Shown here: piece by piece, positions 6,183 through 33,551 of the stretch | Position numbering within the stretch: the stretch's first letter is position 1 | Layout of the letters: every line of letters starts with the position of its first letter | DNA from: Bacteroides sp. | Lineage (GTDB): Bacteria > Bacteroidota > Bacteroidia > Bacteroidales > Bacteroidaceae | DNA length: 39,359 nucleotides | Assembly (NCBI GenBank): GCA_015060735.1 | Contig: SUXX01000019.1 | Span: 1-39,359 of the forward strand | Direction of reading: 5' to 3' | Notes under the pieces: model-generated | What the model was told of the DNA's origin: nothing | What the model saw: only the letters and a program-made list of their open reading frames with translations | Database searches by the model: none | Made by a program: the position numbers and the translations under genes

Positions 6183-6211
6183 CAGCATCTATTAATTAAA
6201 ATTGTACGGTT

Positions 6212-7312
6212 ATGAAATTGCAGGTGATAATGAAAACTCTTGTAGGCTTGTTTTGTATTTGTCAGACGTCCTTGGTAAGTGCACAAAAGTCAGGGCCTCT
6301 TCGGTTGGGAGTTGCTGGTGTAACTCATGGACATTTGAATGAAGTGGTTGTTCGTTTGGATAGAGGTGATTTTGAGGTAGTAGGGGTTGCTGAAGCCAAT
6401 GAAACCTATCTGAAGAATAATTCGCTTCGTAAAAAATTGGATCCGTCTGTATTCTATGCTGATTTAGAAGAGATGCTTGACAAAACCCAACCAGAAGTAG
6501 TGGTGGCTTATGGCCCGATTTATGACCATTTGGCTGTTGTGGAGGCGTGTGCTCCTAGAGGGATACATGTGATGGTTGAAAAACCACTGGCTGTAAACAT
6601 GAAACATGCCAACCGAATGGCTGAGTTGGCACGTAAACACAACATATTGGTATTGACAAATTATGAGACTACATGGTATCATACAAATCATGAAGCTTAT
6701 CGATTGATTAAAGAAGAGGATGCTATCGGTCCTTTGCATCGGATAGAGGTTTATGATGGGCATCAAGGTCCGTTTGAAATCCGTTGTGGCAAGGAGTTTA
6801 CTGATTGGTTGACAGACCCTGTGTTGAATGGTGGTGGAGCGGTGATTGATTTCGGTTGTTATGGAGCCAATTTGGTTACATGGTTGCTGAATGGGGAAGA
6901 GCCAATCAGTGTATATGCCGTTTTAAAGCAGATTAAGCCGGATAAATATCCGAAGGTGGATGATGATGCGACTATTATCGTTGAATATCCATCAATGACG
7001 GCTCAGATTATGGGTTCATGGAATTGGCCGGTCGGACGAAAGGATATGCATATTTATGGTCGTAAGGGATATATCTATCAAGATACACCGACATCAATGC
7101 GGGTATATGCCCAAAGAAAACTGGATACAATCCAACCTCCCAAGTTGCCCGAACCCTATAACGATTCTTTCTATTATTTGAAAGCAGCTGTTCGCAAGGA
7201 GATTCAAGTAAAACCATACGATTTGTCTTCGTTGGAGAACAATCTGATTGTAGTTAAGATACTTGAATCTGCGATTGAGAGTTCAAAGACGGGTAAGCCT
7301 GTTCGTTGGTAG
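6212..7312 (+). CDS. Sec-exported Gfo/Idh/MocA family oxidoreductase
   Basis: 366 residues. Residues 1-24 look like a Sec signal peptide (hydrophobic VGLFCICQTSLV, cleavage after VSA before Gln25); ATG 6230 (Met7) is an alternative start that keeps the signal. The Rossmann fold follows (LRLGVAGVTHGH). The family motif EKP is at residues 123-125 (MVEKPLAVN). The second signature is GGGAVIDFGCYGAN, with Asp213 and Tyr217: the D-x3-Y arrangement of glucose-fructose oxidoreductase rather than the D-x3-H of inositol dehydrogenase types. The substrate is unknown, probably a sugar or polyol. A periplasmic NAD(P) enzyme exported by Sec would have to bind cofactor after export. The gene is monocistronic and converges with nudC. 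Confidence 0.85.
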   Translation: MKLQVIMKTLVGLFCICQTSLVSAQKSGPLRLGVAGVTHGHLNEVVVRLDRGDFEVVGVAEANETYLKNNSLRKKLDPSVFYADLEEMLDKTQPEVVVAYGPIYDHLAVVEACAPRGIHVMVEKPLAVNMKHANRMAELARKHNILVLTNYETTWYHTNHEAYRLIKEEDAIGPLHRIEVYDGHQGPFEIRCGKEFTDWLTDPVLNGGGAVIDFGCYGANLVTWLLNGEEPISVYAVLKQIKPDKYPKVDDDATIIVEYPSMTAQIMGSWNWPVGRKDMHIYGRKGYIYQDTPTSMRVYAQRKLDTIQPPKLPEPYNDSFYYLKAAVRKEIQVKPYDLSSLENNLIVVKILESAIESSKTGKPVRW

Positions 7313-7366
7313 AGCATAAGATAAAAGCGGAAACTTAATGACAAGTTTCCGCTTTTATCTTATGCT
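7313..7366. terminator. Long bidirectional terminator overlapping the nudC stop
   Basis: A perfect 24-bp inverted repeat (7313-7336 and 7343-7366, loop AATGAC) starts directly at the stop codon of the 6212 gene. The nudC stop codon (7360-7362) and its last codon lie inside the right arm, so part of the hairpin is coding on the minus strand. Confidence 0.85.
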
Positions 7367-8142
7367 TTCTCTAACCAATCATCAATAAGTTTTCTGGCTA
7401 GGCTTAGTTTGCCGGGAATTTCGGGTAAATTATCTTTTGTAAAGAATGCACCGGCACACAGTTCTTCGTCTTGAAGTTTGATCTCACCGCTTTCATAATC
7501 AGCGGTAAAACCTATCATTACTCCGCTTGGATAGGGCCAGGGTTGACTACCGAAGTATTTTAGGTTTTTGATGCGGAGTCCGGTCTCTTCCATGACCTCT
7601 CGGTGCACACATTCTTCCAGTGTTTCGCCGGCTTCTAAAAAGCCGGCTACTAGTCCGTAAAAGGTACCCCTGAAGTTTTTTGCTCTGACCATCAATATGC
7701 TGTCTCCTTTGTTGATACGTACAATGATGGCCGGAGAAATATGTGGATAAAATTCCTGACGGCATTCAGGACACTTCTTGCCGATGTCAGAGATTCGCTT
7801 GGTGGGTACACCACAGGCCGGACAATAACGGCTGTTTTGATCCCAATTCAGAATTTCGAAGGCTTGGCCGGCTTTGTAGTATTCCTGAAAAGGCAGAAAA
7901 TCGTACGAAGCCCGAAGCCCTTTCATCTCTCGTAGGGGAGCTTCTTCTCCGGATATGGGGGTGTGTAGATGATAAGTCTTGCAAGGGATCTCTTGTAAGT
8001 ATCCAATGTTATGGATGGTACTACCGATAGGGACTTTTTCTGGTGGTTCCGCCCCACAAGGGATGTGATAACCATCGGCCTGTTGTTCGATTAAAATCAA
8101 GTCTTTGTAAAAGACGAACCAATAATATGTTTGTTCTTTCAT
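7360..8142 (-). CDS. nudC: NAD(+) diphosphatase / decapping Nudix hydrolase
   Basis: 260 residues, matching NudC. It splits NADH/NAD+ to NMN and AMP and, in E. coli, removes NAD caps from RNA. The zinc ribbon is visible as Cys107-x2-Cys110 (CPACG) and Cys124-x2-Cys127 (CPEC). The Nudix box spans Gly167 to about residue 189, with REVMEETGL at 181-189. The NudC-specific SQPWPYPS sits at 199-206. The gene starts 5 bp after the tex stop, so it is cotranscribed with tex. Its 3' end lies in the terminator hairpin. Confidence 0.95.
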   Translation of the reverse strand: MKEQTYYWFVFYKDLILIEQQADGYHIPCGAEPPEKVPIGSTIHNIGYLQEIPCKTYHLHTPISGEEAPLREMKGLRASYDFLPFQEYYKAGQAFEILNWDQNSRYCPACGVPTKRISDIGKKCPECRQEFYPHISPAIIVRINKGDSILMVRAKNFRGTFYGLVAGFLEAGETLEECVHREVMEETGLRIKNLKYFGSQPWPYPSGVMIGFTADYESGEIKLQDEELCAGAFFTKDNLPEIPGKLSLARKLIDDWLEKA

Positions 8143-8147
8143 TGTTC

Positions 8148-10271
8148 TTAATCCAATATCATTGTCATACTTATACGTTTTCTTCCCATGTCTACATTCA
8201 ATACCTTGACTTGTACATGTTGGTGAATGCTGACTATGGTTGTTGGGTCGCTTACAAACTCACGACTGAGTTGGGAGACATGTACCAAACCATTTTCCTT
8301 GATGCCTACATCCACGAAACAACCGAAGTTGGTGATGTTGGTCACAATACCGGGTAGAATCATTCCTTCCTTCAGGTCGTCTATTGTCTTTACGTTTTTA
8401 TCAAATTCGAATACCTTGATGGCTTGTCGTGGGTCACGGCCAGGCTTTTCTAGTTCCATCATGATGTCGGTCAGGGTAGGAAGGCCGATTTTGTCCGTTA
8501 CATATCGCTTGATGTCTATTTTGTTTCGAAGTTCTTTGTTCTTTATCAATTCTTCTACCGTACATTTCATGTCTTTGGCAATATGTTCCACCACGGCATA
8601 GCTTTCAGGATGCACGGCCGAGTTGTCCAATGGATTCTTGGCACCGGGAATGCGGAGGAAGCCTGCACATTGCTCAAAAGCCTTGGCTCCCATTCGAGGC
8701 ACCTTCATCAGTTCCTTACGAGAAGCAAAAGCACCGTTTTCGGCTCGATAGTCCACGATGTTTTGGGCAAGGGCAGGGCCTAAACCGGATACATAGGTCA
8801 GCAAATGTCGGCTAGCTGTATTCAGATTCACACCTACCGAGTTTACGCAACTTTCCACGGTCATGTCCAATGATTTTTTCAGAGCCGTTTGGTCTACATC
8901 GTGTTGGTATTGTCCCACACCGATGCTTTTGGCTTCAATCTTCACAAGTTCGGCCAAAGGGTCCATCAGTCGGCGACCAATGGAAACGGCTCCTCGAACG
9001 GTTACGTCATAATCCGGGAATTCCTCGCGAGCAATCTTCGAGGCCGAATAGATGGAAGCCCCGTCTTCACTCACCACAAACACCTGTAACTTTCGGTCGT
9101 ATCGTTGGCCGGTGACGAATGCTTCAGTTTCGCGGCTGGCGGTGCCATTGCCGATGGCGATGGCCTCAATCTGATATTGTTCTACTAGCTTCGTGAGCTT
9201 GCGGCTGGATAAAGCATGCTCGCTTTTGGGTGGGTGTGGATAGATGGTTTCGTTGTGCAGAAGATTCCCTTGAGCATCCAGACAAACCACTTTGCAACCG
9301 GTACGATACCCCGGGTCTATACCCATCACCCGTTTCTGACCTAATGGGGGAGCCAGTAGCAATTGGCGGAGGTTACCGGCAAATACACGGATGGCTTCTT
9401 CATCGGCTTTTTCCTTGCTGAGGGTAGCAAACTCGGTTTCGATGCTTGGTTTCAAGAGGCGTTTATAAGCATCTTTGACTGCCTCTTTCACTTGTTGGCT
9501 ACATTCGTTGTTCCCTCGCACGTAGTTTCTTTCTAACCGTTCGGCACATTCTTCATCGTTGGGCGAGATATTTACTTTCAAGAGTCCTTCAGCTTCTCCT
9601 CGGCGGATAGCCAGTAGCCGGTGTGAGGTGCATCGTTTCAAAGGTTCGCTGAAATCGAAATAATCCTTGTATTTAGCGGCCTCTTCCTCTTTCCCTTTCA
9701 CTACTTTTGCGGTGATGATGGCTTGGCGAGAGAAGAGGTTTCTGATTTGGTTTCGCGAACGCTCATCCTCGCTTACTTGTTCGGCAATGATATCGCGAGC
9801 ACCTTTCAAGGCGTCTTCTTCATCTTTTACTTCGCCTTTGATAAAAGTACGTACGCGAGCGGATAAATTATTTTCGCGTTGGCTCATTAAGATAATAGCC
9901 AATGCCTCCAATCCCTTTTGTCGGGCTACCTCAGCACGAGTCTTTCGCTTGGGTTTGTAGGGTAGGTAGATATCTTCCAGTTCAGTAGCATCCCAACATG
10001 CCTCGATACGTTTTTTCAGGTCAGTCGTAAGTTTCCCCTGTTCTTCGATGGTCTTAAGGATGGTTTCCTTTCGTTTGGCTATATCGGTCAGCTTGTCATA
10101 TCGTTCCTTGATGGCTCCGATTTGTACCTCGTCCAATCCGCCCGTTGCCTCCTTGCGATAACGGCTGATGAAAGGGATGGTGGCTCCTCCATTCAGGAGT
10201 GAGAGTGTATTTTCTACTTGATGCACAGCTATCTGAAGGGCTGTGGCAATCATTCTGCTAAATATTTCCAT
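8148..10271 (-). CDS. tex: RNA-binding transcriptional accessory protein Tex (S1 domain)
   Basis: 707 residues from the ATG at 10271 (MEIFSRMIATALQ, the usual start in the group). The upstream in-frame ATG at 10295 is unlikely because a -7 box covers 10293-10300. Domain order: Tex N-terminal helical region (GATIPFISRYRKEATGGLDE), YqgF/RNase H-like fold (VMGIDPGYRTGCKV), helix-hairpin-helix region (YVSGLGPALAQNIVDYR), and a C-terminal S1 RNA-binding domain (GIVTNITNFGCFVDVG to RKRISMTM). It is a cytoplasmic nucleic-acid-binding factor implicated in transcription. It is first in an operon with nudC. Confidence 0.96.
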   Translation of the reverse strand: MEIFSRMIATALQIAVHQVENTLSLLNGGATIPFISRYRKEATGGLDEVQIGAIKERYDKLTDIAKRKETILKTIEEQGKLTTDLKKRIEACWDATELEDIYLPYKPKRKTRAEVARQKGLEALAIILMSQRENNLSARVRTFIKGEVKDEEDALKGARDIIAEQVSEDERSRNQIRNLFSRQAIITAKVVKGKEEEAAKYKDYFDFSEPLKRCTSHRLLAIRRGEAEGLLKVNISPNDEECAERLERNYVRGNNECSQQVKEAVKDAYKRLLKPSIETEFATLSKEKADEEAIRVFAGNLRQLLLAPPLGQKRVMGIDPGYRTGCKVVCLDAQGNLLHNETIYPHPPKSEHALSSRKLTKLVEQYQIEAIAIGNGTASRETEAFVTGQRYDRKLQVFVVSEDGASIYSASKIAREEFPDYDVTVRGAVSIGRRLMDPLAELVKIEAKSIGVGQYQHDVDQTALKKSLDMTVESCVNSVGVNLNTASRHLLTYVSGLGPALAQNIVDYRAENGAFASRKELMKVPRMGAKAFEQCAGFLRIPGAKNPLDNSAVHPESYAVVEHIAKDMKCTVEELIKNKELRNKIDIKRYVTDKIGLPTLTDIMMELEKPGRDPRQAIKVFEFDKNVKTIDDLKEGMILPGIVTNITNFGCFVDVGIKENGLVHVSQLSREFVSDPTTIVSIHQHVQVKVLNVDMGRKRISMTMILD

Positions 10272-21348: not shown

Positions 21349-21393
21349 TTATAAAACATTGTATAAAAGAATGTTTTTTTTGATGTTTTATAA
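21349..21393. repeat. Operator-like inverted repeat upstream of the Tat-linked operon
   Basis: TTATAAAACAT (21349-21359) and ATGTTTTATAA (21383-21393) form a perfect 11-bp inverted repeat with a 23-nt spacer, ending 11 bp before the -7 box. The left part is itself near-palindromic (ATGTT-ATAA-AACAT). Confidence 0.5.
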
Positions 21394-21404
21394 AAAATAT
21401 CTGT

Positions 21405-21412
21405 TACTTTTG
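21405..21412 (+). promoter_or_regulatory. -7 box (TACTTTTG) of the Tat-linked oxidoreductase operon
   Basis: Perfect TAnnTTTG, 38 bp before the ATG at 21451. TTTG at 21379-21382 (22 bp upstream) may be the -33 element and overlaps the inverted repeat. Confidence 0.6.
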
Positions 21413-21450: not shown

Positions 21451-22521
21451 ATGGATAGAATCAAAGTAGGGTTGATTGGATTTGGACGAATGGGAGAATT
21501 TTATCTCTTGGCTATGAAATGTAGTAATTTATGGGATGTCGTTTATATCTGTGATACATCACCGATTTCTCGTGAATTAGCCGCTCAAAAATCCCCGGAA
21601 TCTAAGATTCTATCAGATGAATCTATTATATTTAATGACCCTGAAATTCAGGTTGTTGGCTTGTTTACTCTTGCTAATGTTCGTAAGAGTCAGATAGAAA
21701 AAGCGGTGGCTGCTGGAAAACATATTATAGCAGAAAAGCCGTTGGCTTATAACTTGGAAGATGAATGGGGTGCTGTTGAATTAATAGAAAAGACTCCGTT
21801 GGTTGCAACGGTCAATTTGTATTTGCGTAATGCTTGGTATACTCATAAGTTGAAAGAGGTGGTCAAGTCAGGGGAAATTGGTGAACTGGCTATTATACGT
21901 GTATGTCACATGACACCGGGTTTGTCTCCAGGTGAAGGACACGAATACGAAGGACCTTCCTTTCATGATTGTGGTATGCATTATGTGGATATTACTCGTT
22001 GGTTGGCAGATTCGGAATATAAAACCGGACATGCTCAGGCAATGAGAATGTGGAATTATAAAGATCCTTGGTGGTTGCAATGTCATGGCACATTCGAAAA
22101 TGGTGTCGTGTATGATATCACGCAAGGATTTGTTTATGGACAATTATCTAAGGATCAGACGCATAATTCTTATATGGAACTAATCGGGACTAAAGGAGTT
22201 GTGCGGATGACTCATGACTTTAATACAGCTGTGGTTGATATTCGTGGTGTGAATATCACAGAACGGATTGAGAGACCTCATGGTGGGAAAAATATACCTT
22301 ATTTATGTGATATGGTAGCAAACTCTATCATGACAGGCGTTCGAAATGAAAACTTGCCACAATTCCGTGATTCTGTGATAGCATCTGAATATGCGTGGAA
22401 AATGTTAGAAGATGCACGGAAGAATGAGCTGCCGGCTATCGGAAATTTGGATACGTTAGAAGAAATACATGCTCGACGTGCAGCGATGACCAATGGTTAT
22501 GGATTGTTGAAGAAAAGATGA
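21451..22521 (+). CDS. Gfo/Idh/MocA family oxidoreductase without export signal
   Basis: 356 residues starting directly with the Rossmann fold (VGLIGFGRMGEFY, residues 7-19), so it is cytoplasmic. EKP is at residues 95-97 (IIAEKPLAYN). The catalytic region reads PSFHDCGMHYVDITRWL, the D-x3-H pattern of inositol-dehydrogenase-like members. It probably oxidises or reduces a sugar or inositol derivative with NAD(H); the exact substrate is unknown. It is first in the operon with tatA, a Tat-exported paralogue, DUF1080 and an isomerase-like lipoprotein. It may reduce the keto sugar after uptake; that is inference. Its codon choice is plainer than that of the two downstream structural genes. Confidence 0.9.
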   Translation: MDRIKVGLIGFGRMGEFYLLAMKCSNLWDVVYICDTSPISRELAAQKSPESKILSDESIIFNDPEIQVVGLFTLANVRKSQIEKAVAAGKHIIAEKPLAYNLEDEWGAVELIEKTPLVATVNLYLRNAWYTHKLKEVVKSGEIGELAIIRVCHMTPGLSPGEGHEYEGPSFHDCGMHYVDITRWLADSEYKTGHAQAMRMWNYKDPWWLQCHGTFENGVVYDITQGFVYGQLSKDQTHNSYMELIGTKGVVRMTHDFNTAVVDIRGVNITERIERPHGGKNIPYLCDMVANSIMTGVRNENLPQFRDSVIASEYAWKMLEDARKNELPAIGNLDTLEEIHARRAAMTNGYGLLKKR

Positions 22522-22547
22522 ATTAAAATTAAAAATAGAATTTAAAA

Positions 22548-22745
22548 ATGAAAAGTTTATTGTTTTTAGGCAATATTGGTACTGGTGAAATAATTTTGAT
22601 TGCACTTGTCGTATTATTGCTGTATGGCGGAAAGAAAATTCCTGAACTGATGAAGGGAATCGGTAAGGGGGTGAAGAGTTTCAAGGACGGAATGAATGAA
22701 ATTGAAAAGGATATCACAGAAGATACTCCTAAAACAGAAAAATAA
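22548..22745 (+). CDS. tatA: Twin-arginine translocase subunit TatA
   Basis: 65 residues. TatA/TatE architecture is clear: short N-terminus, one transmembrane helix (about residues 13-27, [13 protein letters not shown]), the hinge GGKKIPEL, an amphipathic helix ([16 protein letters not shown]), and an acidic, charged tail. It forms the protein-conducting part of the Tat pore together with TatC. There is no TatB-like protein in the window, so this would be a minimal TatA-TatC system. It sits 26 bp after an oxidoreductase gene and 30 bp before the gene of a twin-arginine-signal protein, its likely cargo. Confidence 0.94.
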
Positions 22746-22775
22746 TTTTTTTACTAACCTTAAATAAAAAGTAAA

Positions 22776-24257
22776 ATGGGAAAAGAAATGTCTAGAAGAT
22801 CGTTCCTCAAGGCAGGTACGGCAGCAGCTATCGGTTTGTCAATGACTCCGGGTAGTGTATTTGCAAATGTAGATCAAAAGAAGAAGAAAAAAGGTGCTAA
22901 GGATGCTAAGTTGAAGATCCTGGGTGTAGGTATCGGTGGTAGAGGTGCCAGCGTTCTTCGCGGTCTTGAAACTGAAGATTTCATTGGTTTGTGTGACGTT
23001 GACTGGAAGTATGCAGATCCTATTTTCAAGCGTTATCCAAATGCCAAGAAGTACAATGACTACAAGGTGATGTTTGCTGAAATGTTGGATCAAGCTGACG
23101 CTGTTGTTGTTGCTACTGCTGACCATACTCACGCTATCATCGCTGCTGAAGCTATCGCTGCTGGTAAGCACGTATATTGCGAAAAGCCTTTGACTCACAG
23201 TGTTTACGAATCTCGTTTGTTGACTAAGTTGGCTGCTAAGCATAAAGTAGCAACTCAGATGGGTAACCAAGGTGCTTCTGGTGAAGGTGTACGCACTATG
23301 TGTAACTGGTTGTGGAATGGTGAAATCGGTGAAGTAACTAAGGTTGAAGCATTCACTGACCGTCCTATTTGGCCGCAAGGTTTGGAACGTCCGGAAGATA
23401 CTCCAGCAGTTCCTTCTACTATGAACTGGGATGCTTTCATCGGCCCGGCTCCTATGCGTCCTTACAACCCGATCTATACTCCATGGAACTTCCGTGGCTG
23501 GTGGGACTTCGGTACAGGTGCATTGGGTGATATGGCTTGCCACATCTTGCATCCGGTATTCAAGGCTTTGAAATTGGGTTACCCAACTAAGATTCAAGGT
23601 TCTTCTACTTTGTTGTTGTCTGAATCTTGTCCTCAAGCTCAGATTGTTAAGTTCGTATTCCCGGCTCGCGACAATATGCCTAAGGTTGCATTGCCAGAAG
23701 TTGAAGTATGGTGGTATGATGGTGGCTTGAAGCCAGAACGTCCTGCTGGTTTGCCTGCTGGTGTTGATATGAATGTATCAGGTGGTGGTGTTATCTTCTA
23801 CGGTACTAAGGATACAATGATTTGCGGTTGCTACGGTGAAAAGCCTTACTTGTTGTCAGGTCGCAAGCCTCAAGTTCCTAACATGTGTCGTGAAATCACA
23901 TTGTCTCACCAACAAGACTGGGTACGTGCTTGTAAGGAAGATGCTGCTACACGTGTTCCTAGTGCATCTGACTTCTCAGAAGCAGGTCCATTCAATGAAA
24001 TGGTAGTAATGGGTGTTGTTGCTGTTCGTTTGCAAGGTTTGAACCAAGAATTGCACTGGGATGGCGAAAAGATGGAATTCACTAACATTCCAGCTGATGC
24101 AACTATCCGTAGCGTCATCAAGGACGGCTTTACTATCAAGGATGGTCACCCGACATTCAAGAAGACTTTCACTGAACCGGTTAACGCTCGTAAGTTCGCT
24201 GCTGAATTGATCAAGCATAACTATCGTGAAGGTTGGACTTTGCCTGCAATGCCTTAA
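22776..24257 (+). CDS. Tat-exported Gfo/Idh/MocA family oxidoreductase
   Basis: 493 residues. The N-terminus is a consensus twin-arginine signal (SRRSFLK, residues 6-12; hydrophobic 13-25; likely cleavage after SVFA at 30). The Rossmann motif LGVGIGGRG is at 49-57, EKP at 136-138 (CEKPLTHS), and GTGALGDMACHILHP carries the D-x3-H pair. Tat export fits an NAD(P) enzyme that must fold with cofactor before leaving the cytoplasm. It probably oxidises the 3-OH of glycosides, by analogy with known 3-keto-glycoside operons. tatA lies 30 bp upstream, DUF1080 33 bp downstream. Codons are heavily biased to GGT, GCT, AAG, GAA and TTG, indicating high expression. Confidence 0.92.
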   Translation: MGKEMSRRSFLKAGTAAAIGLSMTPGSVFANVDQKKKKKGAKDAKLKILGVGIGGRGASVLRGLETEDFIGLCDVDWKYADPIFKRYPNAKKYNDYKVMFAEMLDQADAVVVATADHTHAIIAAEAIAAGKHVYCEKPLTHSVYESRLLTKLAAKHKVATQMGNQGASGEGVRTMCNWLWNGEIGEVTKVEAFTDRPIWPQGLERPEDTPAVPSTMNWDAFIGPAPMRPYNPIYTPWNFRGWWDFGTGALGDMACHILHPVFKALKLGYPTKIQGSSTLLLSESCPQAQIVKFVFPARDNMPKVALPEVEVWWYDGGLKPERPAGLPAGVDMNVSGGGVIFYGTKDTMICGCYGEKPYLLSGRKPQVPNMCREITLSHQQDWVRACKEDAATRVPSASDFSEAGPFNEMVVMGVVAVRLQGLNQELHWDGEKMEFTNIPADATIRSVIKDGFTIKDGHPTFKKTFTEPVNARKFAAELIKHNYREGWTLPAMP

Positions 24258-24290
24258 TAGATTATTTATAATTAATTAAAGAAAAAGAAA

Positions 24291-25163
24291 ATGAAGAAGA
24301 ATATGACTTATTTGGCTGCTTTTGCTTTGGCATTTAGCTTTGCTGCATGTGGTGGCCAAAAGAAGCAAGAAGCTGCAGCTGAAGCTCCAGCAACAGCAGA
24401 AGCTCCAGCAGTTCCTGCATATAAGATTGTAGAAAAAGAACAAGTAGATCTTAGCAAGTTCAAAACAGATAAGGACGGCTATATCGTATTGTTCGACGGA
24501 TCATCATTGGATGGTTGGAGAGGTTACGGTAAGGATAAAGTTCCTGCTCGTTGGACTATCGAAGATGGTTGCTTGAAGTTTAGCGGTACTGGTGCTGGTG
24601 AAGGTCAGACAGGTGAAGGTGGTGACATCATCTTTGCTCACAAGTTCAAAAACTTTGAATTGTTGTTCGACTGGAAGATTTCTAAGGGTGGTAACTCTGG
24701 TTGCTTCTTCTTGGCACAGGAAGTAACAACTGAAAAGGATGGCAAAGAAAGATATCAACCTATCTATATCTCTGCTCCTGAATATCAGTTGTTGGATAAC
24801 GCTAATCACCCAGATGCTAAGTTGGGTAAGGACAACAACCGTCAGTCAGCTTCTTTGTATGACATGATTCCTGCTGTTCCTCAAAACCAAAAGCCTTTTG
24901 GCGAATGGAACCAAGCTAAGGTAATGGTTTACAAAGGTACTGTAATCCACGGTCAGAATGGTGAAAACGTGGTTGAATATCACTTGTGGACTCCACAATG
25001 GACTGAATTGCTTCAAGCTAGTAAGTTCAGCCAGGCTAAGTGGCCTTTGGCATTCGAACTCTTGAACAATTTGGGTGGTGAAAATCACGAAGGTTATATT
25101 GGTTTCCAAGATCACGGTGATGATGTTTGGCTTCGCAATATCCGCGTAAAAATCATGGAATAA
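24291..25163 (+). CDS. DUF1080 (3-keto-disaccharide hydrolase family) lipoprotein
   Basis: 290 residues. Lipoprotein signal with lipidated Cys20 (SFAAC), then an Ala/Pro/Glu-rich tether (about 21-45). The body is the DUF1080/PF06439 jelly-roll: GYIVLFDGSSLDGWRGYG, WTIEDGCLKFSGTG, FKNFELLFDWKISKGGNSG, APEYQLLDNANHPD, and the end GYIGFQDHGDDVWLRNIRVK. The family is now associated with cleavage of 3-keto-glycosides. It would act outside the cytoplasm on the product of the Tat-exported dehydrogenase encoded just upstream. The gene is strongly codon-biased. Carbohydrate binding without catalysis is the alternative. Confidence 0.9.
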   Translation: MKKNMTYLAAFALAFSFAACGGQKKQEAAAEAPATAEAPAVPAYKIVEKEQVDLSKFKTDKDGYIVLFDGSSLDGWRGYGKDKVPARWTIEDGCLKFSGTGAGEGQTGEGGDIIFAHKFKNFELLFDWKISKGGNSGCFFLAQEVTTEKDGKERYQPIYISAPEYQLLDNANHPDAKLGKDNNRQSASLYDMIPAVPQNQKPFGEWNQAKVMVYKGTVIHGQNGENVVEYHLWTPQWTELLQASKFSQAKWPLAFELLNNLGGENHEGYIGFQDHGDDVWLRNIRVKIME

Positions 25164-25166
25164 TCT

Positions 25167-26081
25167 ATGAAGAAAATTATTTATACTATGTTAGCTAGCG
25201 TCACTTTGACGCTAGCTGCTTGTAATAGCCAACCAGTAGCAGAAGCAAAAACCCCAGTGAAAAAGGAAATTGGTGTACAGTTGTATTCAGTACGTGAGTT
25301 GATTGGTAATCCTGAACTTTTTGCTAAGAATCAGGCTACTATTTTACCTCAATTGGCACAAATGGGCTATACTGCTATTGAAACAGCTAACTACAAGGAT
25401 GGAAAGTTGTATGGCTTGGCTCCTGAAGAATTCAAGGCTTGTATTGAAAAGGCTGGTTTGAAGGCTTTGTCTACACATACAACTCGCGGTCTTTCGGCTG
25501 AGGAATTGAAGGCTGGTGCTCCAAGTGAAGAAACCATGAAGTGGTGGGACGAATGTATCGCAGCTCATAAGGCAGCAGGTATGAAATACATCGTTACTCC
25601 TTCACAAAGATTCCCTGAAACCATGAAGGATTTGCAAACATGGTGCGATTATCACAATGCCATTGGTAAGAAATGTGCTGAAGCAGGTTTGAAGTATGGT
25701 TATCATAACCATTCTTTCGAATTCAAAAAGGTAGAAGACAAAGTTGTGATGATTGACTACATGATTGAAAATACAGATCCTCAATATGTATTCTTTGAAA
25801 TGGACGTTTATTGGGTAATGATGGGACAAGCAAGTCCTGTTGATTACTTTAACAGATATCCGGGTCGTTTCAAATTGTTGCACATCAAGGATAGAAAGGA
25901 AATTGGTCAAAGCGGTATGGTTGGATTTGACGCTATTTTCAAGAATGCTGAATTGGCAGGTGTAGAAAATATCGTTGTTGAAGTGGAAGGTCTCAAGGGC
26001 GAAGCCTTGATGCCGGGTATGGTTCAAAGTGCAGAATACTTGCTTGATGCAGATTTTGTAAAACCAACTTATAGTAAGTAA
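25167..26081 (+). CDS. Sugar phosphate isomerase/epimerase-like (AP endonuclease 2 fold) lipoprotein
   Basis: 304 residues, 3 bp after the DUF1080 stop. Lipoprotein signal with Cys19 (TLAAC). The TIM-barrel family is visible from KEIGVQLYSVRELI, QMGYTAIETANYKDG, GLKYGYHNHSFEFKK and FFEMDVYWVMMGQASP, ending FKLLHIKDRKE and IVVEVEGLKG; the His, Glu and Asp residues there are candidate metal ligands. As an exported lipoprotein it cannot be acting on cytoplasmic sugar phosphates. A role as isomerase, epimerase or lyase on keto sugars is inferred from context. A strong hairpin lies within its signal-peptide codons. Confidence 0.88.
   Translation: MKKIIYTMLASVTLTLAACNSQPVAEAKTPVKKEIGVQLYSVRELIGNPELFAKNQATILPQLAQMGYTAIETANYKDGKLYGLAPEEFKACIEKAGLKALSTHTTRGLSAEELKAGAPSEETMKWWDECIAAHKAAGMKYIVTPSQRFPETMKDLQTWCDYHNAIGKKCAEAGLKYGYHNHSFEFKKVEDKVVMIDYMIENTDPQYVFFEMDVYWVMMGQASPVDYFNRYPGRFKLLHIKDRKEIGQSGMVGFDAIFKNAELAGVENIVVEVEGLKGEALMPGMVQSAEYLLDADFVKPTYSK
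25193..25217 (+). repeat. Intragenic hairpin in the signal-peptide codons
   Basis: AGCTAGCGTCA (25193-25203) and TGACGCTAGCT (25207-25217) pair perfectly over 11 bp with a 3-nt loop CTT. It starts 26 bp after the ATG of the isomerase-like lipoprotein gene. Confidence 0.7.
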
Positions 26082-26094
26082 GAAAATATTTGAG

Positions 26095-26131
26095 GAAATG
26101 TCCTTACTTAAAATGGTGAGGACATTTCTTT
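26095..26131 (+). terminator. Terminator or attenuating hairpin between the lipoprotein gene and tatC
   Basis: GAAATGTCCTTAC (26095-26107) pairs with GTGAGGACATTTC (26116-26128) with one mismatch, followed by TTTTG. No promoter box is seen between it and tatC, so tatC may depend on read-through. Confidence 0.6.
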
Positions 26132-26153
26132 TGTTTGTTTAGATTGTAAAGAA

Positions 26154-26981
26154 ATGGAAGTGAAAGAAAACGTAGGGAGTAAGGCGGAAGAATTGTTGGA
26201 AAGCATGCCTGAGTTGACTTTTTGGGATCATTTGGAAGTGCTTCGATGGGCATTGTTTAGAATAGCTTGTGTATTGGCTGTATGTACGGTTGTAACATTT
26301 ATATCGATGCCGTATATTTTTGATCAATACATAATGGCTCCTACTACAAGTGATTTCTTTGTTTATAAATGGTTGGCAGAGGTAAGTGGTGGCTTGTTCT
26401 CTTTTTCGGATGATTTCCATGTGCAGATTATCAATATTAATGTAGCTTCTCAGTTCTTTACTCATATCAGTACGTCCTTGTCGTTAGGTCTAGTATTGGT
26501 ATTTCCTTATGTTATTTACGAAATATGGAAGTTCATTCGTCCGGCTTTGTTTGACCATGAGGTTTCTCATATTCGTTCGGCATTTGTCGGTGGTACTTTG
26601 ATGTTTTATTTGGGATGTACCATTGCTTATCTTTTGATATTCCCCTTTACATTCCGTTTTTTGACTGAGTATGAATTGAGTGCAGCCATTCATAACCAGA
26701 TTGACTTGTCTTCTTATATCGGGAACTTTGTCATGATGGTGATGGTGATGGGGATTGTCTTTGAAATGCCACTTTTGGCGTGGGTGCTTTCATGTTTAGG
26801 ATTAGTGAACAAGTCTTTCTTGCGTGAATATAAACGTCATGCAGTAGTCGGGTTGATGGTCTTGTCGGCTATTATTACTCCTTCGGGAGACCCTTTCTCC
26901 ATGATGCTTGTATTTGTTCCACTGTATCTATTATATGAATTGTCCATATTAGTGGTGAAAGATGAGACTTTAGCCCAATAA
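26154..26981 (+). CDS. tatC: Twin-arginine translocase subunit TatC
   Basis: 275 residues with six predicted membrane helices. Functional signatures are present: cytoplasmic N-terminus with LTFWDHLEVLRWALFR (signal-recognition Glu), FPYVIYEIWKFIRPAL, and FEMPLLAWVLS (conserved FExP). The C-terminus is cytoplasmic (VVKDETLAQ). TatC is the receptor for twin-arginine signals. It lies at the end of the operon that begins with an oxidoreductase and tatA, separated from the rest by a hairpin. The N-terminal extension of about 20 acidic residues is longer than in E. coli TatC. Confidence 0.95.
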   Translation: MEVKENVGSKAEELLESMPELTFWDHLEVLRWALFRIACVLAVCTVVTFISMPYIFDQYIMAPTTSDFFVYKWLAEVSGGLFSFSDDFHVQIININVASQFFTHISTSLSLGLVLVFPYVIYEIWKFIRPALFDHEVSHIRSAFVGGTLMFYLGCTIAYLLIFPFTFRFLTEYELSAAIHNQIDLSSYIGNFVMMVMVMGIVFEMPLLAWVLSCLGLVNKSFLREYKRHAVVGLMVLSAIITPSGDPFSMMLVFVPLYLLYELSILVVKDETLAQ

Positions 26982-26999: not shown

Positions 27000-27038
27000 A
27001 AATAAAGCGTAGTAATTGTTTTACTACGCTTTATTTTT
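27000..27038 (+). terminator. Terminator of tatC
   Basis: Perfect 16-bp inverted repeat (27000-27015 and 27021-27036), loop TTGTT, T-tract overlapping the right arm. The GH92 promoter overlaps it. Confidence 0.85.
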
Positions 27039-27074: not shown

Positions 27075-29357
27075 ATGAAAACATGTTATTTTAGTAGGAA
27101 ATTGTTATTCTTGGGCGGGTTTATAATGTACTGTTTATGTCTGTCCGCAGTAAAAAATCCGGTTGATTATGTGAATCCTTTGATTGGAACAGATTCTAAG
27201 TATGAGCTTTCTACAGGTAATACTTATCCGACCATTGCCTTGCCATGGGGGATGAACTTTTGGACACCACAAACAGGAAAGATGGGAGATGGTTGGACTT
27301 ATACTTATAAAGCCGATAAAATCAGAGGTTTTAAGCAAACTCATCAGCCTAGTCCCTGGATGAATGATTATGGTCAGTTTGCCATTATGCCCATTGCTGA
27401 CAAACTGGTTTTTGACCAAGATCAACGAGCAAGTTGGTTTTCGCATAAAGCAGAAATTGTAAAACCGTATTTTTATAAGGTTTATTTGGCTGATCATGAC
27501 ATTACGACTGAAATGACACCAACCGAACGTGCAGCCATGTTCCGTGTAACCTATCCGGAAACAAAAGAATCTTATATGATTGTAGATGCTTTTGATCGTG
27601 GTTCGTATGTGAAGATTATTCCGGAGGAGAATAAGATTATTGGGTATACGACCAAAAATGTAGGTGGGGTTCCTGATAACTTCAAGAACTATTTTGTATT
27701 GGTGTTCGATAAGCCTTTTACTTTTGTTTCTACAGCTAGTAGCGGTGATATTCACCCGAATAAAAAAGAAGAGTTAGCTAAACACGCAGGTGCGATTGTT
27801 GGTTTTAGTACCCGTAGAGGTGAACAAGTACATGTGAAAGTCGCTTCCTCTTTTATCAGTTATGAGCAGGCGGAACAAAATTTGAAGGAACTGGATGGTA
27901 AAACCTTTGACCAAGTGGTTGCCAATGGTCGCAGTGTATGGAATCGCGAATTGTCCAAGTTGGAAGTAAATGATGATAATATTGATAATTTGCGTACATT
28001 CTATTCGAATTTATATCGTGCTTTGCTCTTCCCACGTAGTTTCTATGAAATTGATAAGGAAGGTAAGGTGATGCATTATAGTCCTTATAATGGTAAAGTT
28101 TTGCCGGGTTATATGTTTACCGATACCGGTTTTTGGGATACTTTCCGTTGTTTGTTTCCCTTCTTGAATCTTATGTATCCTTCCATGAATCAGAAAATGC
28201 AAGAAGGATTGGTGAATGCTTATAAGGAAAGTGGCTTTTTGCCTGAATGGGCTTCTCCGGGTCATCGTGATTGTATGATTGGGCAGAATTCAGCATCTGT
28301 TGTTGCAGACGCTTATGTTAAGGGGATAAGAGGTTATGATATTGAAGCTCTTTGGGAGGCTGTAAAGCATGGAGCACATGCCCAGTTGGAGAAGACTGCC
28401 TCCGGACGCGTTGGTTATGAATATTACAATAAATTAGGCTATGTCCCTAATAATGTGGGCATCCGTAGTAATGCGGCTCGTACATTGGAATATGCCTATA
28501 ATGATTGGAGTATCTATACTTTGGGTAAGAAACTAGGAAAACCGGAAAGTGAAATTGCCATTTATAAAGAGCGAGCCATGAATTACCGGAATATTTATCA
28601 TCCTGAAAGAAAATTGATGGTCGGTAAGAGTGACAAGGGCGTTTTCAATCCGGAATTTAAAGGAACAGACTGGAGCCGTGATTTCTGCGAAGGAAATAGT
28701 TGGCATTGGAGTTTTTGTGTGTTCCACGACCCAAAAGGATTGATGGAATTGATGGGAGGACAAGATGAATTCAATGTCATGATGGATTCTGTATTTGTAA
28801 TTCCGAGCAAGATGGGGATGGACAGTCGTGGTATGATTCATGAAATGCGTGAAATGCAGGTAATGAATATGGGACAATATGCTCATGGAAATCAACCGAT
28901 TCAGCATATGGTTTATTTATATAACTATTCTGCTCAACCTTGGAAGACACAATATTGGGTACGCGAAATTATGAACAAACTTTATAATGCAGCTCCCGAT
29001 GCTTATTGCGGTGATGAAGACAATGGTCAGACTTCGGCTTGGTATGTATTTTCTGCATTGGGCTTCTATACCGTTTGCCCAGGTACAGATCAATATGTTC
29101 TAGGAACTCCACTCTTTAAGTCAGTGAAACTTCATTTGGAAAATGGTAAGACTGTTACCATTGATGCTGCTAACAATAGCTGTGAAAATCGTTATATAAA
29201 AAGTATGAAACTGAATGGAAAGAATTACTCACGTAACTATTTGACACACGATCAATTGATGAAGGGAGCAAAGATTCAATACCAAATGGATGCAGTTCCC
29301 AATAAGACACGTGGTGTTCAAAAGGAAGATGCACCTTATTCTTTCTCTGTTGAATAA
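27075..29357 (+). CDS. GH92 family alpha-mannosidase
   Basis: 760 residues, normal for GH92. An N-terminal export signal is present (KLLFLGGFIMYCLCLSA); whether it is lipidated at a Cys is unclear. GH92 enzymes are Ca2+-dependent exo-alpha-mannosidases acting on N-glycans and yeast mannan. Family hallmarks: VNPLIGTDSKYELSTGNTYP, GMNFWTPQTG, FKQTHQPSPWMNDYGQF, GHRDCMIGQNSASVVADAY, and EDNGQTSAWYVFSALGFY with VLGTPLF at the C-terminal end. The linkage specificity cannot be read from these motifs. The phosphoesterase gene starts 2 bp after its stop. Confidence 0.94.
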   Translation: MKTCYFSRKLLFLGGFIMYCLCLSAVKNPVDYVNPLIGTDSKYELSTGNTYPTIALPWGMNFWTPQTGKMGDGWTYTYKADKIRGFKQTHQPSPWMNDYGQFAIMPIADKLVFDQDQRASWFSHKAEIVKPYFYKVYLADHDITTEMTPTERAAMFRVTYPETKESYMIVDAFDRGSYVKIIPEENKIIGYTTKNVGGVPDNFKNYFVLVFDKPFTFVSTASSGDIHPNKKEELAKHAGAIVGFSTRRGEQVHVKVASSFISYEQAEQNLKELDGKTFDQVVANGRSVWNRELSKLEVNDDNIDNLRTFYSNLYRALLFPRSFYEIDKEGKVMHYSPYNGKVLPGYMFTDTGFWDTFRCLFPFLNLMYPSMNQKMQEGLVNAYKESGFLPEWASPGHRDCMIGQNSASVVADAYVKGIRGYDIEALWEAVKHGAHAQLEKTASGRVGYEYYNKLGYVPNNVGIRSNAARTLEYAYNDWSIYTLGKKLGKPESEIAIYKERAMNYRNIYHPERKLMVGKSDKGVFNPEFKGTDWSRDFCEGNSWHWSFCVFHDPKGLMELMGGQDEFNVMMDSVFVIPSKMGMDSRGMIHEMREMQVMNMGQYAHGNQPIQHMVYLYNYSAQPWKTQYWVREIMNKLYNAAPDAYCGDEDNGQTSAWYVFSALGFYTVCPGTDQYVLGTPLFKSVKLHLENGKTVTIDAANNSCENRYIKSMKLNGKNYSRNYLTHDQLMKGAKIQYQMDAVPNKTRGVQKEDAPYSFSVE

Positions 29358-29359
29358 TA

Positions 29360-30490
29360 ATGAATATGTATATGATGAAAAGAATTTTACTATCGATAAC
29401 AGCATTGCTTGCTTTAGGACAAGCTTATGCTCAGAAAGGGGAACCACAGATTCCCGTTTATCCGGCATTGGAAGATGCAAAGTCTTTTAGTATGATTATG
29501 GTTCCGGACCCGCAGAGTTATGTGAAGTTTGCAGCCAATCAACCGTTGTTTGATTTGCAGACCGCTTGGATTGCACAAAATCAGAATCGCTTGAATATTA
29601 AGGCAGCACTTTTTACCGGGGATATGGTAGAACAAAACAACAAGTTGATATCCGCTCCACTTCCGAATGAATATAATGGTGACCAGACCTCTCGTCAGCA
29701 GTGGGAAGCTGTGTCGCGTGCATTGGACCGATTAGATAACCGTTTGCCCTATGTTGTTTGTCAAGGTAATCATGATTTGGGCTATATTGCGGCAGAATAC
29801 CGTTATTCCATGATGCCCGATTTCATCTATCCGGAACGTAATTCGAAGTTTGCTCAAACCTTGGTTGCTACTGGTCCTAATTATCAGGGAATACATACCA
29901 TGGAGAATGCGGCTTTTGAATTTTGTGAAGAATCTTGGGGAAAATTGTTAGTTATAGCTCTTGAATTTGCTCCACGGGATGAAGCTTTGGATTGGGCTCG
30001 TCAGTTGATTGAATCCGATCGATTTAAAAATCACAGAGTATTTATTTTTGTTCACTCTTTCTTGAACACGGCTGGCGAACGCATCCAGACGGAAGGTTAT
30101 AAACTGGCTGAACGTAATTGGGCACAAGCGGTATGGGAAAAACTGATTTATCCTTCCAAAAATATTCAGATGGTATTGTGCGGCCATACGGGAGCAGCTC
30201 CTAATATGGATGATTTGGATAATATCAATTATAAGTCTACTTCTTCTTTCCGTATTGATAAGGCTGCTGACGGACATTCGGTTGTGCAGATGATGTTTAA
30301 TTCACAGCAAGGAGACGGTGACTGGAATGGTAATGGTGGGGATTGTTGGTTGCGTATACTGGAATTTAAGCCGGATGGTAAAACGATTGGTGTACGGACA
30401 TTCTCGCCGTTGTTTGCATTGTCTAAGCGTACCCAACACATGGCTTGGCGTACAGCCGATTATGACCAGTTTTTGATTACGCTTGAATAA
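29360..30490 (+). CDS. Exported calcineurin-like metallophosphoesterase
   Basis: 376 residues; MMKR (29372) is an alternative start that keeps the signal. A Sec signal peptide is present (ILLSITALLALGQAYA, cleavage before Gln). Metallophosphoesterase motifs in order: MVPDPQSY, LFTGDMVEQNN, VCQGNHDLG, FVHSF and LCGHTG, supplying the Asp, Asn and His ligands of a two-metal site. The substrate is unknown. Placement 2 bp after GH92 suggests it may act on phosphorylated glycans such as phosphomannan, but that is inference. The operon ends in a strong terminator. Confidence 0.88.
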   Translation: MNMYMMKRILLSITALLALGQAYAQKGEPQIPVYPALEDAKSFSMIMVPDPQSYVKFAANQPLFDLQTAWIAQNQNRLNIKAALFTGDMVEQNNKLISAPLPNEYNGDQTSRQQWEAVSRALDRLDNRLPYVVCQGNHDLGYIAAEYRYSMMPDFIYPERNSKFAQTLVATGPNYQGIHTMENAAFEFCEESWGKLLVIALEFAPRDEALDWARQLIESDRFKNHRVFIFVHSFLNTAGERIQTEGYKLAERNWAQAVWEKLIYPSKNIQMVLCGHTGAAPNMDDLDNINYKSTSSFRIDKAADGHSVVQMMFNSQQGDGDWNGNGGDCWLRILEFKPDGKTIGVRTFSPLFALSKRTQHMAWRTADYDQFLITLE

Positions 30491-30509
30491 AAAATGTAGT
30501 GAAAGAATC

Positions 30510-30557
30510 CGGTGATAAGAACCTTTATTAGTAGGAGGTTTTTATCACCGTTTTTTT
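30510..30557 (+). terminator. Terminator of the GH92-phosphoesterase operon
   Basis: CGGTGATAA (30510-30518) pairs with TTATCACCG (30542-30550), with an inner AACCT/AGGTT pairing, followed by T7. Confidence 0.85.
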
Positions 30558-30635
30558 ATCAGATGGAAAGATGTAAATCATAAGATTGTGCAAGTAAATA
30601 AAAAGAATATTCATGTTTCTTAAAAAAAGAAGAGT

Positions 30636-30643
30636 TATCTTTG
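30636..30643 (+). promoter_or_regulatory. -7 box (TATCTTTG) of the GH38 gene
   Basis: Perfect TAnnTTTG, 25 bp before the ATG at 30669. No convincing TTG at the -33 position. Confidence 0.6.
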
Positions 30644-30668
30644 TATTATGAACTAAAAAGAACTTCAG

Positions 30669-33551
30669 ATGAAAAGAAATTTGTTTTATTGTTTGTTTGC
30701 TGTTTTATGTTTTTCGCTAGGAACAGCATCTGCTACCATTTCGAATGTGAAGGGTAAGCAGATTCCGGCCGTTTACAAAACGGGTAATGGAATGATGCAG
30801 AAAGTAGAATTGGTTGTAGATTATGTCGGTGCAATCGTTTCTGCAGATGTGAAGTTAGGTAATGACGTGCAGAAAGTAGAATTAAAGGAAGGGGAGAATA
30901 AAATCCTGTTTGAAATACCTCTTCAAGCAAAGAATACCAAGCTTTCTTATGAAATCTTGGCCGGTACAGAGAAGAAGACCGGAAAGATTGCAGTAGGTCC
31001 GGTACGCCATTGGCAAATGAACATGGTTCAACATACGCATACGGATATTGGTTATACGCGTTCGCAAATGGAAATTTTGGCAGAGCATCAACGCTATATT
31101 GACTATGCGTTGGATTATTGTGATGCAACCGACTCTTACCCGGAGTTTGCCCAGTTTAAGTGGACATGCGAAATAGCCTGGGCGGTGAGCGAGTATTTGA
31201 AGAATAAACCGGCCAAGCAAATTGAACGATTGAAGCAGAGAGTAGACGAAGGTCGTATCGAAATTGCCGGAATGTATTTGAACTTCGATGAACTTCCCGA
31301 TGAACAGACATTGGCTGCTTCATTGGCTCCGTTGAAGCTTTTCCGTGAAAAAGGATTGAAAGCCGAACTTGCCATGCAGAACGATGTAAACGGTATTGGT
31401 TGGTGTTTCAGTGAATTCTTTCCCGATTTGGGCGTGAAGTATATTAATATGGGTACACACGGTCACCGTGCTTTGATTTGTTTTGATAAGCCGACGGTCT
31501 TTTGGTGGGAATCTCCTTCTGGTAAGAAAATTCTGACTTATCGTGCAGAGCATTATCATACAGGGAATATGTGGGGAGTTCATGCAGACGATTTTGAAGC
31601 TTTTGAGAAGCGTGTGTTGAATTATTTGGACGAAATGGAAGCCAAGAACTATCCATATGATGTACTTGCTATCCAGCATTCCGGTTACCTGACAGACAAC
31701 GCTCCTCCTTCAACAAAGAGTAGTGAAATGTTATTGAAGTGGAATGAAAAATATGAATGGCCGAAACTTCGTACAGCTGTAGCCAGTGAATTCATTAAGT
31801 CGGTAGAAAAAGATTATGCTTCACAGATACCTACTGTACGTGGAGCTTGGCCGGATTGGTGGACTGATGGCTTTGCTTCTGGTGCTCGCGAAGCAGCCGT
31901 TTCGCGTATTACACATGCCGATGCGATTGCTAGTCAAGGTGCATTGTCTTTCGCACAAATGCAGGGTGCTGTTTTACCGGATAATACCAATGACCAAATT
32001 GATGAAATAAACAATGCACTTTTGTTCTATGATGAACACACCTTTGGTCATAGCGAAAGTGTGCGTAATCCTTATGAACTTGAAACTTGGGAACAACGCT
32101 CTTTGAAGCAGTCGTATGCTTGGGAAGCCTACCGTCGCGTCAGCTTGTTGGGCGAAGTGGCTATGGGTGCCTTACAACAGTTCACTCCGAAGGTTTCTAA
32201 TCCTTCATTGGTGGTATATAATACATTGAATTGGGCTTATAGCGGTATTGCCAAGGTTTATATTGACCATCAACAACTTCCTACTGATAAAGATTTCGAA
32301 ATCGTAGATGAAAAGGGTAGAGTGATGCCGGCACAGGCTTCAGAAAGCCGCAGAGATGGAACATATTGGAATGTTTATGTAAAAGACATACCGGCTTTGG
32401 GATATGCACAATATTATATTCGTGTAAAGAATACCCCTCGTAAGCAGTTGTTGAAAGAAACGAAATTAACTAACCCACGTGTAGAAAACCAATGGTATTC
32501 CATTGATTTTAATGCTCGTAAGGGTACTATCAGTAAGTTGTTTGATAAGGAATTGGGCAAGCAGCTTTTGGCAGAAAAGCCGGAATGGGAAATGGGTGAG
32601 TTTATTTACGAAATCATTGATAGCCGTCGTCCGATGGAGCAGTATAGAAAGCCACAGTTTTTGCGTCGCTCTCCGGAAAGAATACGTTTCGTTCATTTTG
32701 AAGAAGGACCTATCTGGAATTCCTATCGTTTTGTGACCGAAACACCCGCCGGTCGTGATGCAGACAACTTGATTGTTGAATACCGCGTCTTTAACGTAGA
32801 AAAGAAGATTGAGATTGTTTACAAACTTCGCAAAAAGGCAATAACCGATCCGGAAGCTGTTTATGTATCATTCCCTTACGAAGTGGCTGGTGGTAAGATT
32901 TGGTTGGATGTCCCTGGCGGTAATATCGAGGCCGGTGTTGATCAGATACCGGGTTCTTCCAACGACTGGTACACGGTTCAGAACTATGCGGCTGCCCGTA
33001 GCAATGACTCGCAAATCATCATGGGTAGCTGTGAGATTCCATTGATGCAGTTCGGTGCTATTAATACGGGTCGTTACGATGCCGGTGCCAAGCCACAGTC
33101 TACTAACATGTATTCATGGCCAATGAACAACTATTGGACTACTAACTTCAATGCCGACCAAATGGGACAAGTTCAATGGAGTTATTTCATCACTTCATCG
33201 GCTGATAACAGCATTCAGCGTGCTACCCGTTTCGCTTGGGAAAACCGTGTACCATTGCGTGCCCGTGTCCTTCCGGCTGGAAATGAAGCACAAACCGTAT
33301 TGCCGGCTAAGTCCATATTCCGAATCATTCCGGAAAACTTGCTTTTAGTCAACATGAAGCCGGTGAAGAATGAACGTGCAGTGTTGCTTCAGCTTCGTGA
33401 AGTTGGAGGCAAGCAAGCTACATTTGCCGTTGAGTCGGAAACAGTTCGCTTTAACAATCCGGTTGTTTGTAATGTCTTGGGTATTCCGATGGATACTAAT
33501 AACTTGGAATTCAAACCGTGGGAAAACAAATTTATCAAGTTAAGTTGGTAA
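30669..33551 (+). CDS. GH38-type alpha-mannosidase, exported
   Basis: 960 residues with a signal peptide (LFYCLFAVLCFSLGTASA). The N-terminal catalytic barrel has the GH38 metal motif HTHTDIGY (His124 and Asp126) and the probable nucleophile Asp239 in AMQNDVNGIGW; FKWTCEIAWAVSEYL and YDEHTFGHSES are also typical, the latter with a further likely zinc ligand. Residues beyond about 500 form the beta-rich C-terminal domains. GH38 enzymes remove alpha-mannose from N-glycans with retention and need a divalent metal. It has its own promoter between the GH92 operon and the peptidase gene. GH38 versus a closely related uncharacterised family is not fully settled. Confidence 0.85.
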   Translation: MKRNLFYCLFAVLCFSLGTASATISNVKGKQIPAVYKTGNGMMQKVELVVDYVGAIVSADVKLGNDVQKVELKEGENKILFEIPLQAKNTKLSYEILAGTEKKTGKIAVGPVRHWQMNMVQHTHTDIGYTRSQMEILAEHQRYIDYALDYCDATDSYPEFAQFKWTCEIAWAVSEYLKNKPAKQIERLKQRVDEGRIEIAGMYLNFDELPDEQTLAASLAPLKLFREKGLKAELAMQNDVNGIGWCFSEFFPDLGVKYINMGTHGHRALICFDKPTVFWWESPSGKKILTYRAEHYHTGNMWGVHADDFEAFEKRVLNYLDEMEAKNYPYDVLAIQHSGYLTDNAPPSTKSSEMLLKWNEKYEWPKLRTAVASEFIKSVEKDYASQIPTVRGAWPDWWTDGFASGAREAAVSRITHADAIASQGALSFAQMQGAVLPDNTNDQIDEINNALLFYDEHTFGHSESVRNPYELETWEQRSLKQSYAWEAYRRVSLLGEVAMGALQQFTPKVSNPSLVVYNTLNWAYSGIAKVYIDHQQLPTDKDFEIVDEKGRVMPAQASESRRDGTYWNVYVKDIPALGYAQYYIRVKNTPRKQLLKETKLTNPRVENQWYSIDFNARKGTISKLFDKELGKQLLAEKPEWEMGEFIYEIIDSRRPMEQYRKPQFLRRSPERIRFVHFEEGPIWNSYRFVTETPAGRDADNLIVEYRVFNVEKKIEIVYKLRKKAITDPEAVYVSFPYEVAGGKIWLDVPGGNIEAGVDQIPGSSNDWYTVQNYAAARSNDSQIIMGSCEIPLMQFGAINTGRYDAGAKPQSTNMYSWPMNNYWTTNFNADQMGQVQWSYFITSSADNSIQRATRFAWENRVPLRARVLPAGNEAQTVLPAKSIFRIIPENLLLVNMKPVKNERAVLLQLREVGGKQATFAVESETVRFNNPVVCNVLGIPMDTNNLEFKPWENKFIKLSW

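Follow-up and report, generated by a model that had tools for sequence, protein, structure and literature searches.

Tat translocase genes within a predicted keto-glycoside pathway cluster of Bacteroides

Background

In one model of glycoside breakdown, a 3-keto glycoside is cleaved by elimination and hydration, and glycosidase modules working by stepwise oxidation, elimination and hydration were reportedly described by Nasseri et al. in 2024. Here we analyse a six-gene cluster of a Bacteroides sp. assembly in which enzymes resembling such a set occur together with tatA and tatC, two genes of the twin-arginine translocation (Tat) system. The cluster lies on contig SUXX01000019.1 (GCA_015060735.1), whose positions 1–39,359 were analysed as a whole (39,359 nt, hereafter the window); all coordinates are window positions unless a locus or contig is named.

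The closest described counterpart is BT2156–BT2160 of Bacteroides thetaiotaomicron, for which oxidation in the periplasm is published: in the available text of the two articles, BT2158 is described as a glycoside 3-dehydrogenase of the periplasm, its mutant failing to grow on trehalose, leucrose or palatinose (PMC11300592), and the DUF1080 protein BT2157 is a 3-ketotrehalose hydrolase (PMC9007349). A word search of the main texts of these articles returned no mention of ‘Tat’. Among Gfo/Idh/MocA enzymes, Tat signals are carried by Caulobacter AAOR and by Zymomonas glucose-fructose oxidoreductase (GFOR), whose bound cofactor works in a redox-neutral cycle (PMC4628093, available text). A minimal TatAC adjoining its cargo has a likeness in the phoD-tatAd-tatCd genes and the TatCy–ywbN/efeB association of Bacillus subtilis, where TatC phylogeny tracks operon content (PMC3827258, available text). 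Among the literature matches listed, judged by titles and the starts of abstracts, no publication joining tat genes with the keto-glycoside pathway was found.

Results and discussion

A known enzyme set with tat genes inside it

Our preferred explanation, to which we give a probability of about 0.7, is a keto-glycoside pathway of the periplasm, akin to BT2156–BT2160, into which the cell's general Tat genes were drawn. The enzyme set itself is already known and the Tat linkage is the new part: BT_2158- and BT_2159-type dehydrogenases and a DUF1080 hydrolase are shared with B. thetaiotaomicron, and the window cluster has tatA and tatC inside it. Translations and family profile searches recovered, at the same positions and all on the + strand, the six genes named by the original prediction, which had been made from the DNA letters and open reading frames (ORFs) of this stretch (Table 1). 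In what follows, DH58 denotes the BT_2158-family glycoside 3-dehydrogenase, DH59 the BT_2159-like dehydrogenase, DUF1080 the PF06439 enzyme and TIM the TIM-barrel enzyme. From DH59 to tatC, the intergenic gaps measure 26, 30, 33, 3 and 72 nt.

Table 1 Features of the cluster and its immediate surroundings
Feature	Position	Strand	Evidence
Bacteroides-type promoter-like site, TTTG-spacer-TAnnTTTG	21379..21412	+	38 nt before first gene; weak pattern match
DH59, Gfo/Idh/MocA dehydrogenase, BT_2159-like, no signal peptide seen	21451..22521	+	NF058563 636.6 bits over full model (cut-off 650); PF01408
tatA	22548..22745	+	PF02416 49.2 bits; TIGR01411 60.8 bits (cut-off 53.9)
DH58 with Tat signal SRRSFLK	22776..24257	+	NF058561 833.3 bits (cut-off 750), protein positions 1–487
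DUF1080 / 3-keto-disaccharide hydrolase, lipoprotein-like	24291..25163	+	PF06439 154.6 bits (cut-off 26.8)
TIM, xylose-isomerase-like TIM barrel, lipoprotein-like	25167..26081	+	AP_endonuc_2, PF01261
Terminator-like hairpin between enzymes and tatC	26092..26131	+	17 pairs, −25.3 kcal/mol, z −6.6; within gap 26082–26153
tatC	26154..26981	+	PF00902 201 bits
Terminator-like hairpin after tatC	27000..27036	+	Hairpin search

DH58 exceeds the curated cut-off of its model and so counts as a BT_2158 family member, as the DUF1080 protein does as a 3-keto-disaccharide hydrolase, while DH59 falls short of its own cut-off and is BT_2159-like rather than a member. In a sequence search of the structure database, the best solved relatives were PDB 8tdf and 8tdh for DH58 (870 and 868 bits), 4hxc, 8tda, 8rr2 and 9fbe for DUF1080 (451–470 bits), and 8tcd, 8tcs and 8tct for TIM (359–398 bits); the alignments span almost the whole mature protein, and these three are therefore enzymes of known kinds. 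DH59 had no close solved relative in this search (best 55.7 bits). The three enzymes are closely related to the 8tdf/8tdh, 8tda/8tde and 8tcd/8tcr/8tcs/8tct entries, which we take to be the modules of Nasseri et al. Family models and solved relatives thus agree with the originally proposed likeness to BT2156–BT2160, and by homology the cluster is likely to encode a keto-glycoside pathway, that is, C3 oxidation and cleavage of glycosides.

Export signals and a possible reaction scheme

A Tat signal had been predicted on DH58, with Sec- or lipoprotein-like signals or none on its partners, and the same division is seen in relatives: the Tat motif occurs in 62 of the 67 DH58 ORFs read but in 1 of 119 partner enzymes (0/17 DH59, 0/58 DUF1080, 1/44 TIM), some rows being near or exact copies of each other. 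The window DH58 begins MSRRSFLK and was over the cut-off of both PF10518 (26.1 bits) and TIGR01409 (21.6 bits) in the genome searches, which makes it a predicted Tat substrate; a scan of the whole protein put PF10518 at 21.9 bits, below its cut-off of 22.7. Both accessory enzymes have lipobox-like N-termini in their translations (FAAC and LAAC), as do 40 of 58 DUF1080 relatives (18 other) and 25 of 44 TIM relatives (18 other, plus the divergent L084 sequence flagged as Tat). DH59 was expected to have no export signal, and neither Tat motif nor lipobox appears in any of the 17 relatives read. The five DH58 ORFs lacking the motif comprise the latter fragment of a split ORF (L017), an ORF cut at a contig end (L079) and the second copies of three tandem pairs (L018, L019, L024).

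Tat export of DH58 is likely on these grounds. We propose that folding and NAD(P) binding of DH58 take place in the cytoplasm and that the folded protein would then, as its conserved signal suggests, be exported via TatA–TatC. Beyond the inner membrane it would oxidise the glycoside at C3, after which the Sec-routed lipoproteins DUF1080 and TIM would cleave the 3-keto glycoside. The 3-keto sugar might then be reduced back on DH58 itself, its bound cofactor cycling as in GFOR, or alternatively be taken up and reduced by the signal-less DH59. A GxGxxG-like motif is visible in the DH58 translation, and tightly bound, recycled NAD(P), as in a GFOR-type nicotinoprotein, is a candidate trait; GFOR and DH58 differ in that their sequences are only distantly related (1evj, 21.5 bits) and bound cofactor in DH58 is putative. 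Should this scheme hold, it becomes testable how a nicotinamide-dependent enzyme can work in an extracytoplasmic setting, which presumably offers little free NAD, and the Tat system of these Bacteroidales gains a function in their physiology, in breaking down plant and dietary glycosides.

One Tat system and twelve predicted substrates in the host assembly

The host assembly (G000) is a draft of 2.45 Mb in 96 contigs, 80.9% complete. Profile searches of all of it returned one TatC match (PF00902) and one TatA match (PF02416), both in the window cluster, and no separate TatB; the composition is that of a minimal TatAC translocase, the absence of TatB being provisional in a draft.

Tat substrates were sought with two signal models (PF10518, TIGR01409) combined with a twin-arginine motif near the protein start, giving 12 distinct predictions, the window DH58 included. 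Ten reach the TIGR01409 cut-off (one only together with its in-frame neighbours), and two (L071, L072) are weak, with PF10518 below cut-off. A further candidate (L045) was dropped as a weak match in a 63-residue frame containing a stop, and the bare RRxFLK DNA pattern was discarded as stand-alone evidence, with 20 sites against 20 in a backward control. Ten of the 12 were assigned to families by Pfam scan, the window DH58 and L042 (a PF01408 match) by separate profile matches. Eight are Gfo/Idh/MocA enzymes, DH58 and L042 among them; the others are an aldo-keto reductase (AKR) with a 4Fe-4S domain, a flavoprotein resembling sulfide:quinone reductase and the two weak candidates, of which one has a metallo-beta-lactamase fold and the other is a TIM barrel. 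Of 16 PF01408 matches in the assembly, eight bear a predicted Tat signal. The result is a catalogue, for one gut bacterium, of predicted Tat substrates that are mostly oxidoreductases of the sugar type.

Three of the seven other Tat-signalled Gfo/Idh genes lie within ~2 kb of DUF1080 genes, one on contig C28 and two on C63. These regions (C28 ~3046–8805, C63 ~53987–57920) are likely further keto-glycoside clusters.

The translocon had been taken to be the pathway's own, which would mean that TatAC is specialised for DH58 and that a general Tat system will not export this protein, comparable to TatAdCd and PhoD. In B. subtilis two Tat systems divide the cargo, whereas the window genome shows one Tat with many predicted cargos. 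A cargo gene is linked to the tat genes here too, but exclusive or near-exclusive service is not what the predictions indicate, since the sole Tat found in the assembly has 11 other predicted substrates (nine over a model cut-off, two weak). Many unrelated substrates were to count against a private system, and the assembly supplies them in part: seven of the 11 are Gfo/Idh enzymes and four are not. The window Tat system thus probably has cargo beyond the window pathway, though mostly from the same enzyme superfamily, and the TatAC pair would double as the cell's general Tat system, most of its predicted cargo being other Gfo/Idh/MocA enzymes.

Linkage of DH58 and TatC in other genomes

Linkage, defined as TatC within 6 kb of DH58, was assessed in 151 genomes drawn evenly from the family. 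TatC is present in 124 of these and BT_2158_fam in 29 (44 matches, E <= 1e-100), and all 29 have TatC (hypergeometric P 0.0017, relatedness ignored). Sixteen of the 29, window included, are linked, compared with ~0.23 expected by chance, although shared descent makes these genomes non-independent. Altogether, 26 loci besides the window have DH58 and TatC within 6 kb, so the pairing in the window is more than chance. Among 24 named loci, 11 are linked (several others have shortened flanks); TatC occurs somewhere in 23 of the 24 genomes, and one copy was found in each of the 11 with linkage. The nearest, L011 (goat colon, Bacteroidaceae metagenome-assembled genome), shows identical order including GH92 after tatC, and its genome and those of L012–L014 (G151–G154) have one TatC each. 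Elsewhere the order varies, with tatA and tatC flanking the enzymes, TatAC upstream, or TatAC downstream in either orientation. The sets overlap (L026 is the locus of G004, with identical coordinates and sequence, and L031's genome G171 is the same as G293), and few DH58 candidates were scored per genome (at most 9 in the family draw and 3 in the phylum draw), so further copies may be missed.

In a draw of 395 genomes across the phylum, 108 had a DH58 match at E 1e-100, and 23, counting G000, exceeded the family cut-off. None of the 22 sampled outside the family is linked, though all 22 have TatC: in three, DH58 and TatC share a contig at a distance of at least 0.5 Mb, and in the remainder, mostly draft assemblies, they lie on different contigs. 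One of the 22 (G519) belongs to the same order. In these draws, linkage is seen in Bacteroidales only, and DH58 elsewhere does without it. Physical association of the known pathway with Tat genes is real and recurrent.

Surroundings of 139 TatC genes of the family draw were compared (138 fetched plus the window, five fragmentary or weak rows of 144 being left out). Within 6 kb, some flanks ending at contig ends, 16 have DH58, two TIM only (G006, G034), 51 an AKR relative and 70 none of the neighbours searched for.

Quick trees were built for both proteins. On the TatC tree (150 sequences) the DH58-linked label needs 6 changes, against a shuffled mean of 25.2, with 0 of 500 shuffles as low. One 29-row branch (Shimodaira–Hasegawa-like approximate likelihood-ratio test 96) holds 25 of the 27 DH58-linked TatC, the window's among them, along with two TIM-linked and two others; the two linked TatC outside it are L082, which is close by, and L087, which sits on a remote branch. 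The DH58 tree, from which two short pieces were omitted (65 of 67 ORFs used), requires 10 changes of the label, and this implies that linkage was gained or lost repeatedly.

The 51 AKR-linked TatC (e.g. L113, L125) belong to another branch, of 82 rows, and their neighbour, an AKR with a 4Fe-4S domain, is a predicted Tat substrate; its homologue in the window's genome sits on a separate contig (G000:C93).

For a translocon dedicated to DH58, these data cut both ways. One TatC branch does track the cluster, two genomes (G112, G140) each have a cluster-linked TatC and a second on another branch, and Bacillus offers a precedent of substrate-linked TatC (PMC3827258, available text). Against this, no tatC was found within 6 kb in 13 of the 29 family genomes with DH58, nor in the 22 outside, and nine unlinked genomes (G001, G012, G031, G040, G061, G078, G079, G110, G111) have their sole TatC in the 82-row branch holding the AKR-linked ones. 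We reject a private translocon as the main explanation because of the further predicted substrates and the genomes in which DH58 is unlinked, and consider it unlikely.

Neutral hitch-hiking, in which some lineages happen to have tat genes in this locus without any function attached to the association, would fit the many genomes with unlinked DH58, the 10 label changes and the 70 of 139 TatC loci without a searched-for neighbour. It sits poorly with 16 linked genomes where a fraction of one was expected (with the same proviso on descent), with the survival of linkage through several gene orders and orientations, and with a TatC neighbour that is itself a predicted Tat substrate, both here and in the 51 AKR-linked loci; we judge it quite improbable. 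In our preferred explanation, linkage is probably a means of inheriting and inducing these genes together rather than the mark of a private machine.

Several points also weigh against the recruitment of general Tat genes that we prefer. A second Tat system could be missing from a draft in this state of completeness, and G112 and G140, with two TatC each, are of the same genus. The lack of linkage in the 22 genomes outside the family counts here as well. Mutants of BT2157 and BT2158 show no growth defect on raffinose-family sugars (PMC11501099, available text). Given the signal-less second DH58 copies in three Bacteroidales loci, export by Tat is not a universal trait of the family, and a strong hairpin precedes tatC. 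Those second copies (L018:13267–14679, L019:12096–13622, L024:13256–14656) form one clade and no DH59 was found in their loci; perhaps they are cytoplasmic and replace it.

Hairpins and transcription

Gene order and strand are those of the single gene run originally described, but the 17-pair hairpin takes up most of the gap between TIM and tatC and makes one even transcript doubtful. A strong stem before tatC was found in 14 of 14 loci with tatC close behind the enzymes on the same strand (z −2.8 to −10.9, two runs), a set that includes some close relatives and in which L079 has tatA cut off, L014 shows no TIM there and L084 has tatC preceding TIM. The window and L011 have the stem in common, the close relatives L012 and L013 have different stems, and the sequences are unlike in most loci. 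Three of 31 other cluster gaps of at least 25 nt fold strongly, one a 39-nt gap with an unreliable score. Among background same-strand gaps of 55–200 nt (n = 102), 33% have z < −2.5 and 18% z < −4 (all z-scores from a simple shuffle and first-ATG starts), so a single hairpin alone means little. Possibly the hairpin acts as a partial terminator, with less tatC made than enzymes as a result.

We also consider, tentatively and as a doubtful proposition, that in part of the Bacteroidales Tat chiefly exports extracytoplasmic keto-sugar enzymes, with a TatC branch that travels with the cluster and may suit such cargo. The traits of such a system would be a cargo gene set with tatA and tatC on either side, a hairpin that sets the output of tatC, and substrates that are mostly Gfo/Idh/MocA enzymes, some beside DUF1080.

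The promoter-like pattern, taken here to be the Bacteroides-type motif, has 6 matches in the window against 1.72 expected by chance, a weak signal.

Neighbouring genes

At 6212–7312 the window encodes another Gfo/Idh/MocA protein, whose start is Sec-like and whose dinucleotide-binding motif is degenerate (no clean GxGxxG); this single case is consistent with the use of Tat for enzymes that have to be loaded with a cofactor. Downstream of tatC on the same strand (27075–33551) are genes for GH92, a metallophosphoesterase and GH38, the first of which also follows in L011.

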